DNA of 64,000 nt from Peltaster fructicola. Taxonomy: Eukaryota; Ascomycota; Dothideomycetes. Made by a program: the position numbers and the translations under genes. Shown piece by piece: positions 26,601-31,300 of the stretch (positions are counted from its first letter, which is position 1; each line of letters begins with the position of its first letter). The notes beneath the pieces were generated by a model. It ran no database searches. It saw nothing but the letters and a program-made list of their open reading frames with translations, and was not told the origin of the DNA. Location of the stretch: contig CP051139.1 in NCBI GenBank assembly GCA_001592805.2, forward strand, positions 930,001-994,000, in the 5' to 3' direction.

Positions 26601-28139
26601 TTCTTCGAGCAGCATGAATTAACCAGCAATACACGTCGATAGCCAGCTTCTATCGTTGTTCACCAATGTGATCTAGGTTCGAGCACTGCCCAAGTAGCTC
26701 AGGAGCCCATCGAGGCACGTATGCCGTAGATATGGCTGAGCAAGATCGAGCAGCGGATGGCTGACTGTATGGGTCCATCCTTCTGCAATCGACCACGATA
26801 CTTGAATATCAGCGTTCAATCACAACGCCACACGGGTTCATCATGCTGGAAACACGACAAGGCCACGACGGCGAGCTCTGAGCAGACTTAGCAGATTGAA
26901 AACCGCCTTCGCTGCACATTCTTGATGCTGAGATCAGTGAGTCAACGCCATGGAATCTGAGAGCGTGCTGACTATCTTCACAGGTCCAGGCTCTTCCCCG
27001 TTGAGTGGTAAAGACTGCCAGCATTCAAGAACAAGAACGAGTCAAGGTCGAGATAACGTGTAAGAGCAAGGACATATTTGCTGCAGCATGGCTGGCGGAG
27101 CAGGAGGATGTTGTAGACATTATTGTCGTCCATGAAGGCCAGGAATACGATATCGCCCTGACCTGTGGCCGTATCAGTGCAGCTACTGAGCAACAGCACG
27201 CGAGGTCTATGATCTTCGAAGAAGGTTGGGAGCTAGGTCGCCCTGTTGTTCTAGAGAGGGTTGTACGGCAATGATGCACACATGCAGGCTGAGCTCTTGA
27301 TATCCTCGACTCATTGTGCCAACGTTGCTGAGATCAGCTTCACGCTTTGCTAGCCGTGGTGATCTGCATACTTAGGGTCGTCTTTCCGTGGGTGCTTCGT
27401 GCAGCTCTTCAGATGTAGCTGGAAACCAAGACTTGTCTCGGCAACCTCTGAGCGAGAGCACTGTGGTGAGAGAGAGCCATGTCTCAGTCTGCGATGCTTG
27501 GTCCACGACCATTGCTTGTCCACAGATCTTGTCGCCGGTTCTCGCGCCAGAGACATATGCCCTTGCATGTCCATTGAGCGTAGACTGAACGCTCGATACT
27601 GCTGAGTACCCGGTGGTCATGGATCCCGTGAACACGGCTACGTCTCAGCATGGCGCTGGAGGACACGCTCGCTTCACTGCCTCTCTGGTCGCTGCTGCAC
27701 AATGTGGCTGTACGGAGCCCGAGGCGATACATCTGTCTGGGACACGGACTCGTAGCAGTCCGGTAAGGCTCGTCGTAGACATGCTCTGAGCTGGCTGTAT
27801 ACTACACAAGTTGCAGCATGCAGCCACAGGTCTGGCCAGACTCATAGCAGCAACACGAGCTTACTCTCAAATCACTCGTGTGGCTTCTAGCTATCGATGG
27901 CCGGGCAAGATGTCCTCTGGTTGCCGTAGACATGCCTATTCTGGCTCGTAGCCGTTTTGCTCAGGCTTGGCGATCTCAGATCACCCAAACCGCGTCACTC
28001 GCCTACTGTCGGCTTGGTAACATGACGACAGGCCTGCATATAGGCAAGAGCACGCTGAAAGCTCATTGGTAGTTGCGCAGGCCCTTCATTCACTGCTGTG
28101 GCCAGTGCTGATATGAGTCATGCGCCCTTGGCGTGAGGG
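23614..28139. other. Gene-poor region, left part
   Basis: About 4.5 kb between the S53 peptidase start and the U2 snRNA promoter. All open frames are short (the longest, 25200-25700, has 166 codons), overlap on several strands and match nothing I know. I find no domain motif. Isolated splice-like signals occur (for example GTAAGG at 26160 followed by CTGACTAACAACAG at 26219-26232), so an unannotated spliced non-coding transcript is possible. A strong GC hairpin is at 25302-25330. Base composition is not AT-rich, so it does not look like RIP-degraded DNA. Confidence 0.45.
25302..25330. repeat. GC-rich inverted repeat, 9-bp perfect stem
   Basis: GCCCCCTCC at 25302-25310 pairs exactly with GGAGGGGGC at 25322-25330 around an 11-nt loop. 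About 100 nt downstream on the plus strand are a tRNA-like B box (GGTTCGAAACC, about 25435-25445) and a T-rich run (TTTCTTTTTT, about 25450-25460). Together these might mark a structured RNA polymerase III transcript, but no known RNA is recognised. Confidence 0.4.
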
Positions 28140-28145
28140 TATAAG
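28140..28145 (+). promoter_or_regulatory. TATA-like element of the U2 snRNA gene
   Basis: TATAAG about 44 nt upstream of the estimated U2 5' end, in a pyrimidine-rich context. The position suits a core promoter; I infer its role from placement only. Confidence 0.45.
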
Positions 28146-28183
28146 TATTTGTTTTTCTCGCTCTCTTCCTACTTCTTCTTTCT

Positions 28184-28380
28184 TCAGCTCTCTTTGCCTT
28201 TTTGGCTAAGATCAATTGCAGTATCTGTTCTCTAGAGTTTAAAACCTCTAAGGTGTCTATTGACACTAAGATTTTAATCTAATTTTTGGAACCCGTCCAG
28301 AGGCCGCTGGGCTGTGCCTATGTCTCTGGTCACTGTGTCGCTTGCTTTGCACTGCCGCTTGCTGACGCGAACTTCATCGC
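28184..28380 (+). ncRNA. U2 spliceosomal snRNA
   Basis: The sequence contains the conserved U2 5' half in order: CTCTTTGCC/GGC stem-loop I (28190-28206), AAGATCAA (U6-pairing region), GCAGTATCTGTTC at 28218-28230 (branch-point recognition region), stem IIa (TAGAG 28233-28237 with CTCTA 28246-28250), stem IIb (GTGTC 28253-28257 with GACAC 28262-28266) and the Sm site AATTTTTGG at 28281-28289. A further stem pairs CCAGAG (28297) with CTCTGG (28324). U2 base-pairs with intron branch sites in the spliceosome. The recognition hexamer is GCAGTA instead of the near-universal GTAGTA. Both ends are estimates: the 5' end by comparison with yeast U2, the 3' end by usual length. Intact stems and a TATA-like element argue against a pseudogene. 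Confidence 0.85.
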
Positions 28381-31300
28381 CCTTTTTCATCAATCCATCA
28401 GCTTTGCTGGTGCTTGGAGAAGAAGCTCTTATACATGGCGAGATCGACCATGTTGTAGTCCTCAAGCTGTTGGGATACGTCTGGGATGCAGTTCGTAGCA
28501 ACGCAGCGTGAAGACCCTGTGTAACAACAATGGGCTGGCAGCACGCGTAGCAGCGAAGGGTCGATGGCAGACAATGAGTCATCGAAGAGCTGATGCCAGG
28601 CGTGCTACGCAGACTGTGTCCTTGCCATGAGCAGTTGATCGTGCGTATCCGACTGATCTCACACAATTATGGCTGTGTAGCGCAGAGATTGACCTCAGCG
28701 AATGAGCCAAGGTGCTTCACGACTCCAACAACGACTTGAGCATCTTCGTTCACTCGGCGGTGACGATTTACACGTTCGACGAGTGTCATCGATGGTACAT
28801 ATTGCTTGTCGTCCTTCGTACATGTGAGGCGCGGGTCTTGAGGTACGACGCGTTCTCTGTCAAGCGTTCATTTGCTCACTCCCACAACATGGCAGGCCTG
28901 AGCAGACTCGACGACAATTGACAAATCTTCGCTGACGAGGACACAGAGCTCGTCGAACAGTTCGAATGTTGCAGCATTCGCGATTGCTAGCGCTGCAGTG
29001 GATCTGTTGCACTCTCGCTTCTGCAAATCGCCCTCGTGTGAGCATCGCCCGGTCAAAAAGGCTTCACGACGATCTCAGATGGCTCCTTCTCGGTCAAGCA
29101 TTGCAGCATAACGACGTGTAGCAGGTGGGTGCCCACGAAGGGCAGACGCAATGCACGCGACTGCTGGCCTCATCGTGACCGAAACACCACCGCGATCCCG
29201 AGCGAGCATTAGCAGTAGGAGATGGACAAGAACGTTTTGCCCTAGGTCAAGCAAGCGAGCCATGATACTGAGGAGGGCACAGCGATACAAGCAGCCAAAG
29301 GACCTCGTAAGGAGCAAGGTGATCCCATAAGTACAAGTGGGTTGAAAGAGCAATAAGCACAACAGGCTCTGAATTGCATTGTGGCCATCCAGATGCGGAG
29401 GTCCAGACAAAGCTCGACCCAGACAAAGGCATGAATGCCTGTCCTATTGCTGACACGGTGTAGGCACTTGGCAGAGCACACTCACGCACGTGTGCGGCAA
29501 GCTACACAACGCCACTGAGAGATCCTGCGCACAGTCTGTCTGCTAGCAATCGACCAGACTCGCAAGACGCGTCCTAGATCGTGAGTGTACTGTGCTGTCT
29601 AGGCCGCCGCAGCTATAGCGGTTACACCAGCATTATGTTATGGGTGACCTGTGTGCTCGTGCGAGTTCTGCTACAGCTCACACTATAGAGTGGAGCTCGA
29701 CTTGGTGCGCAGGACCGGTCCAGAGGCGAGCGCTTGGTGAGCAGCATGAGTATGTTGGACCAACGACTGACGTGAAGCAGCGAGACGGCATGTTCGAGTG
29801 TCCACTGCAAGCCTTGGGTCAAAGCTGGACACTGGACAAACGAGACCACGATGGTTGTCGAACAGCCATGCCTACCCCGAGTGGCGTGAGTGCTACAACA
29901 AGTCCAAGCTGTATCGAGCGAAACTTGCGCAGCTTATGAAGTTTCGAAGCCGACTGCGAGCATACAGCACCAGAGCACCAGCAAGAGCAGGGAGTTATCA
30001 GACACCATGGGAAGCAGTCAGGATATGGCTGTCTTGTAGCAGTATGGGAACTTGGCGGCGCATGCCGAATCATCCACTGTTGAAAGAGCTCGAGTGTTGA
30101 CAGTGGCTCAAGAGCACAAGGTGGTGCTGATCGACGAGCTGGGTCGCATATCCTTGACAAGGACTGCCATACAAGCAGTTAACAGCGAAGTGGCCAGCAC
30201 ACAAGCATGCTTGCGGAGCAAGATCTGTCCACTCACCGGTTCCAGATCCGGGTCCAGTAGTCCAGGGAATGGACGAGTACGCTGCCCGTCGTCCGTCATG
30301 CTTCCCAGCATTGAGCAACGCACTCGTCAGGGATCAGCTAGCGATTAGCTGGAGGGTACAGTCTCTGAAGGTCTTTGGCAGCTCATTTGCGTCTTATGCG
30401 CATGGAGACTACAAGCCGTCTGCTAAGAGCCGCAGACCTCGAAGCTCTCTGGCAGCTTGCGATCCTCCATGACCTTCAGATCCTATGGACAACATCTTGC
30501 AGCGCAGCGATGCGATGGGAAGGCTCTGGCCGACAACCACATCATTAGGGACACATCCTCAGCTTCGTGTCGAACACATGGCAGGGATGGAGGCTGAGTT
30601 GTCAATCGCAGCTCAGAGAATCGATGTCCGTGGCAGCAGGTCTGTGTTATTGTTGCTTCATTCCAGCGCCCAGCCACGAGACAATGCTTGACTGTAAGGA
30701 CCACTGTGTGGCTTCAGATCAATGAGTCAGAGGAGCCTCTTCGCCGACAACGATACAGAGACCATGATGAAGCAGTGGTACCATGTTGTCGAAAGGCAAA
30801 CAGTCCGTAGCTCTGATGCTGCAATTTTCAGCTATGGTCTCGACTCTGTGACACCATCGTGGTGTACAGCTGGCTGTTCGAGACACCATAGTCGTTGAGA
30901 GAATCCATAATGACTTGGCTGATGCCTACGGAGTCGCGATGACGAGTTGTCGATGGTCTTCGTGGTCTTCGATGACGCTGACTCGAGAAGAGACGATCCT
31001 CGGAGAGCGAGTGCAAGCAAGTACCATGACTCATGCTGGCAAGATTTGACACCTCTCAGCCGCGCGCAGACGGGATGAACGGTCATTCTAGACCAACAGG
31101 ATGAAAGCGAGATTGTCCGAAATCGCATGCTTGTATCCTTATTCATCTCTTCTCGTCAGAAGAGCCCCTAGCTACGGCTGGTCGGACCATCGTCTTCATC
31201 GGGACAAGCCATGCATCGTTCTCGAAGGGCTTGTCTGCTTGGTGGGATCTCTAGTGTGCGCCGCAGAGCCTCCATCTTGTGCCTGGCATCCACGTGCTAT

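Follow-up and report, generated by a model that had tools for sequence, protein, structure and literature searches.

To our knowledge, the branch-recognition hexamer of U2 snRNA, GUAGUA, is close to invariant in eukaryotes. Laboratory yeast U2 mutants suppress branch-site mutations, and the U2 gene of Rhodotorula hasegawae is said to contain an mRNA-type intron. Introns in snRNA and U3 genes are already a known kind: the U6 gene of fission yeast carries one of the mRNA type (PMC10484740), and fungal U3 genes with introns are described, some genomes holding both intron-bearing and intronless copies (PMC5832005). In humans, n.35 variants of RNU2-2 are reported in a neurodevelopmental disorder (PMC12165836). 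For Ostreococcus lucimarinus, Irimia and Roy considered separate spliceosomes serving two intron classes with different branch motifs, noting, however, that no snRNA had been found in more than a single copy in O. tauri (PMC2483917).

We analyzed a 64,000-nucleotide window (C1:930001-994000) of the Peltaster fructicola genome, whose assembly is described as 18.99 Mb in five chromosomes with a median intron of 50 bp (PMC7181583); the genome as searched here comprised 18,987,130 bases in 5 contigs. For a Cdc37 homolog encoded in the window, the closest named relatives are in Baudoinia (69%), Neohortaea, Extremus and Acidomyces, with Zymoseptoria ranking lower. Across the window, the sole Rfam match at gathering score was to U2 (RF00004). 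This intronless snRNA gene, hereafter U2-A, lies at 28184-28376 on the plus strand (the extent of the match, so that the RNA ends are approximate) and aligns with model positions 1-192, that is, at full length, with 121.4 bits against a gathering score of 46 (E 4.5e-24). It has the fold of canonical U2, with the GAUCAA element, the Sm site and stems I-IV. In the Rfam alignment, stem-loop I occupies 28193-28209 (five of six standard pairs in the drawn helix, here and in the second copy described below) and is followed at 28210-28217 by GATCAATT, in which the GAUCAA element that pairs with U6 is intact (28210-28215) and is succeeded by a G-to-U change at 28216. The hexamer at 28218-28223 reads GCAGTA in DNA, with a U-to-C change at 28219, giving the order GATCAATT-GCAGTA-TCTGTTC and two changes relative to the Rfam consensus GAUCAAGUGUAGUAUCUGUUC. 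We take these to be G31U and U34C in human U2 numbering, the latter presumably falling at the position of the conserved pseudouridine. Downstream, on the same strand, are stem-loops IIa (28233-28250, five of five pairs) and IIb (28252-28267, six of six), a possible alternative stem IIc (28239-28277, pairing 28239-28244 with 28272-28277, six of six), the Sm site AATTTTTGG (28281-28289, placed by the alignment and the drawn fold), stem-loop III (28297-28329; outer helix six of six, inner five of five) and stem-loop IV (28334-28369, placed by the drawn fold and by alignment of the two U2 copies, which are identical there). A previous sequence-only reading of the window had described a coherent U2 with stems I, IIa and IIb, an Sm site and the hexamer GCAGUA; this description holds up, extends to stems III and IV, and gains the G-to-U, since only the U-to-C of the two changes had been named. 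Lacking GUAGUA, U2-A is classed as a U2 paralog and not as canonical U2, from which it differs by GCAGUA and by the G-to-U three bases ahead of the hexamer change.

The same reading had proposed searching the whole genome with the Rfam U2 model and inspecting the hexamer at each locus, and had named a second, expressed GUAGUA copy as evidence against its view. In such a search, with the best 45 of 200 candidates scored, we recovered one further U2, U2-B, on the same contig and 2.1 Mb from U2-A (C1:3075431-3075610, minus strand); a DNA search with U2-A as the query returned these two loci and no third. U2-B scores 76.2 bits, a low value because the Rfam model skips part of the gene. On its own strand it reads ...GGCTAAGATCAAGTGT, then 54 bases beginning GTTAGTATCC and ending CACTAATAACACTTCACAG, and then AGTATCTGTTC. 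The 54-nt insert is of the mRNA type (GUUAGU...CUAAU...CAG) and interrupts the hexamer itself, between its U and its A, which we take to be U34 and A35 of human U2. Excising it leaves exactly GAUCAAGUGUAGUAUCUGUUC, the consensus, with GUAGUA. The U2-B sequence has the features of an snRNA gene with an mRNA-type intron, namely GT-AG ends, a candidate branch site and a conserved sequence restored by removal, and the insert agrees with the other introns in length, in its GTNNGT donor and in its candidate branch CTAAT, located 12 nt before its end. The motif AGTATC occurs both near the 5' end of this intron and at the start of the second exon, a repeat that could be due to chance because AGT is expected in a donor. 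The second copy is thus present, and canonical once its intron is removed, while its expression is unproven. Like the intron-bearing snRNA and U3 genes, U2-B has a short GT-AG intron inside a conserved functional element, and intron-bearing and intronless copies coexist as described for U3 (PMC5832005); in P. fructicola, however, the intronless copy has a changed hexamer.

An intron-bearing copy beside an intronless one was found for U4 as well. The genome has two U4 matches, U4-A (C3:2819063-2819195, minus strand) and U4-B (C3:1355036-1355165, minus strand). U4-B contains an intron-like insert of 50 nt, about 12 nt from the 5' end, that reads GTAAGT...GCTGACTCTTACAG with CTGAC inside. After removal of the insert, U4-B has a C at the junction where U4-A has a G, within the stretch that pairs with U6, and the longest run of U4-U6 pairing is 10 in U4-B and 11 in U4-A. 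U6 gave one match, without an intron and with its ACAGAGAAGAUUAGC stretch intact. This bears on whether the U2 pair might be an artefact, through miscalled or misassembled bases at 28216 and 28219 or through a U2-B insert that is not an intron. Our data come from a single assembly; nevertheless, that assembly is of chromosome scale and the substitutions are two separate ones, the insert has a donor, branch candidate and acceptor at the spacing seen in the intron census below, and one of the two U4 genes has the same kind of insert, all of which makes an artefact highly improbable.

Both U2 genes share flanking signals with other snRNA genes. The promoter box GGTATAAGTATTT of U2-A lies at 28138-28150 (plus strand), and the same box precedes U2-B. 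Genome-wide, GGTATAAGTATTT with TCAGCTCT 20-45 bases further on occurs twice, at the two U2 genes, and the reversed control pattern is absent. A looser box, GGTATAAGTAYTY, occurs at eight sites (one for the reversed control), five of which belong to snRNA-type genes: U2-A, U2-B, U4-A, U1 and an unnamed snRNA-like gene. The box of U4-B is weaker, GGTATAATAACC. Genome-wide, the Rfam models for U1 and U5 yielded no match, and both are also silent in control genomes. U1 was located through its promoter box (at C1 1060583) and scores 44.1 bits, below the gathering score of 69.5; the gene bears the 5' AUACUUACCU, the shared box and a common 3' element. U5 was not found in the genome with its Rfam model. 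The unnamed gene, from C2:1926708 onward, combines the box and the common 3' element with an Sm-like AATCTTTGAA; Rfam gave it no match at E values up to 0.5. In U2-A, this 3' element lies at 28384-28423 on the plus strand and consists of TTTTCATCAA, a hairpin and TGGAGAAGA; its general form is TTTTCATCAR, hairpin, TGGAGARGA. It lies downstream of all six snRNA-type genes examined (U2-A, U2-B, U4-A, U4-B, U1 and the unnamed gene) and at none of the three remaining box sites, and a count over 250 kb gave one occurrence, that of the U1 gene. The element possibly has a role in 3'-end formation.

Comparing the two U2 genes revealed divergence with pairing preserved. Their first 46 nt are alike save for one U in the loop of stem I and two substitutions, both in or beside the hexamer and no more than 4 nt from the U2-B intron site. 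In arms IIa, IIb and outer III the sequences differ and pairing is kept within each copy: U2-B forms six of six pairs in IIa, five of six in IIb and eight of eight in outer III, and the longest runs in U2-A and U2-B, respectively, are 5 and 6 in IIa, 5 and 5 in IIb, and 6 and 8 in III. Pairing these arms across copies gives runs of only 2-3. The run of stem IIc was reached by 54 of 20,000 shuffles in U2-B and by 1779 of 20,000 in U2-A; this stem is supported in U2-B and weak by itself in U2-A. Helix boundaries in these comparisons were chosen by eye from the folds and the Rfam alignment. Since the helices have diverged yet still pair with themselves in each copy, neither gene looks dead, and the shared gene signals likewise make both look alive. 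These observations weigh against a reading close to the sequence-only one, in which U2-A alone works and U2-B is either silent or left unspliced. The U2-B donor, GTTAGT, belongs to a class (GTYNGT) with little branch-motif enrichment (CTGAC 13 against 9.0 expected), and U2-A fits the Rfam model better (121.4 against 76.2 bits), though the intron depresses the U2-B score. However, the promoter box and 3' element of U2-A recur at U2-B, the U2-B stems are preserved, and the U2-B intron is one whose excision returns the exact consensus, a feature not expected to persist in a dead gene; we regard a lone working U2-A as improbable.

The explanation we rank highest, at roughly even odds, is that P. 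fructicola has two working U2 genes that share one set of introns and differ in a graded, overlapping preference in branch pairing. U2-B would yield a canonical GUAGUA U2 after its own precursor is spliced, U2-A would yield an intronless U2 carrying GCAGUA, and both transcripts would assemble into U2 snRNPs. U2-A could form six Watson-Crick pairs with CUGAC-type sites and would pair more poorly with CUAAC-type sites, with the reverse for U2-B. Predicted duplex energies, computed for the free duplex with proteins and pseudouridine left out, are in line with such a preference: UACUGAC gives -4.4 kcal/mol with U2-A (GCAGUA) and -2.3 with U2-B (GUAGUA), and UACUAAC and UACUAAU each give -1.3 with U2-A and -2.6 with U2-B. 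UGCUAAC is an exception (-2.9 kcal/mol with U2-A in a shifted register, -2.6 with U2-B), and the energies thus do not all point the same way. Values from a forced bulge of the branch A, which were unusable, and structures scored with an A-C pair were set aside. On these energies, U2-A should favor CUGAY and U2-B mostly CUAAY, in agreement with the original proposal that the C forms a pair with G in CUGAC but a mismatch with A in CUAAC. The candidate branch of the U2-B intron, CUAAU, pairs less well with U2-A by the same energies, and splicing of U2-B possibly depends on U2-B itself.

To what extent do the introns offer both kinds of site? We conducted a census over 314 kb, both strands, taking stretches of the form GTRNGT...YAG that were 40-56 nt long, with seven decoy donors for comparison, and counting 5-mers that end 6-14 nt before the intron end, a range chosen after branch motifs had been seen near the ends of coding-supported introns. 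CTGAC, which had been proposed as the commonest intron motif, was indeed so (47 against 8.9 expected), with CTAAC at 14 (1.9), CTGAT at 14 (5.6) and CTAAT at 11 (1.7); CTCAN and CTTAN showed no clear excess in the census, the largest being CTCAA (10 against 7.9). The excess amounted to 46.5 for CTGAY, with a G before the branch A, and 21.4 for CTAAY, with an A there, so that about two-thirds of the branch sites in the 314 kb are CUGAY and about one-third CUAAY. Among 24 coding-supported introns, some of which hold two motifs, CTGAC was present in 13, CTAAC in 6, CTGAT in 4, CTAAT in 1 and none in 2; decoy donors gave 1-3 such introns and a decoy acceptor 16, which makes the 3' ends less sure. 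Other intron searches were uninformative: a first coding-potential search returned 0, GT-AG alone gave real counts not above decoys, a self-trained search drifted until decoys equalled or exceeded real calls, and a scan with relaxed signals, in which motifs could start 10-32 nt from the end, ranked AGCAAA above TACTGA. In the two-U2 explanation, U2-A would suit the roughly two-thirds of introns with G before the branch A, and U2-B the third with A.

U2 is not known to depart from the canonical form in Aspergillus fumigatus, Cryptococcus neoformans, Ustilago maydis and human. A comparative study gives ACTGAC or CTGACN as the top motif in these same species, with CTAACA leading in A. nidulans, G. 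zeae and N. crassa (PMC2483917). Because CTGAC-type motifs lead in these species as well, an excess of CTGAC alone is no proof of co-evolution. The sequence-only reading had proposed that branch sites co-evolved with a single, changed U2 of the organism; this is not supported, given U2-B, with GUAGUA once its intron is removed, in the same genome, and given the roughly one-third of the motif excess that is CTAAY. A second U2 and mixed branch sites point to two paralogs and not to a replaced U2 with co-evolved sites.

Next in rank, though unlikely, is that U2-A is transcribed and serves as an ordinary or minor U2 whose hexamer change is neutral or slightly harmful, with U2-B essential and no sorting of introns. 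In keeping with this, and against a preference between the two copies, CTGAC (n=41) and CTAAY (n=24) intron candidates showed no visible difference in donor, length or downstream bases, in a small sample with some background, and the base that would face the changed position 31 was A in 12 of the 41 and 6 of the 24. Mixtures of CTGAC and CTAAC are usual in intron-rich fungi (PMC2483917), and the clustering of both substitutions within 4 nt of the U2-B intron site is what a local accident might leave. Imprecise intron loss was considered as an origin of GCAGUA, UUGCAG resembling the end of an intron. Against a merely tolerated change, the functional parts of U2-A are kept elsewhere, as are the promoter box and the 3' element, and a change one base away in human RNU2-2 is reported in disease (PMC12165836). 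A stronger form of the two-U2 explanation, which we consider doubtful, holds that introns are divided, within a single nucleus, between the snRNPs of the two U2 paralogs according to the one base, G or A, before the branch adenosine. Canonical U2 would then be made only after excision of an intron in its own hexamer, and its supply would depend on the splicing it performs.

Outside P. fructicola, a genome-contig collection gave five matches, all GUGUAGUA, at four loci (two on one contig) in three bacterial records with eukaryotic contamination. All four loci carry an Rfam U2, and of the two matches in one contaminated record, one lies outside it. In a viral collection, the canonical U2 pattern was absent, and a single match to GATCAANTGCAGTATCTGTTC, on a contig that carries an array of tRNAs but lacks an Rfam U2, was taken as chance. 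Literature on introns of snRNA genes, variants of U2 and branch sites, searched with few subscription journals included, yielded no description of a natural changed-hexamer U2 beside a canonical paralog. Yeast suppressor U2 likewise places an altered hexamer beside the wild type; here, the two are a natural gene pair and not a construct. The human RNU2-2 n.35 variants similarly change the hexamer in one of several U2 genes, but they are rare variants that arise de novo in disease and affect the neighboring base, in contrast to the fixed gene U2-A (PMC12165836). The single snRNA copies noted for O. tauri differ from the two U2 and two U4 genes present here (PMC2483917).

In this small fungus of apple surfaces, the altered hexamer of U2-A is by prediction the better match for the more frequent type of branch site. 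A natural U2 that looks intact, carries a C in its hexamer and coexists with a canonical paralog would demonstrate that this sequence is able to vary, and the U2-A/U2-B pair would provide a natural system in which to test intron selection by branch sequence among U2 paralogs.
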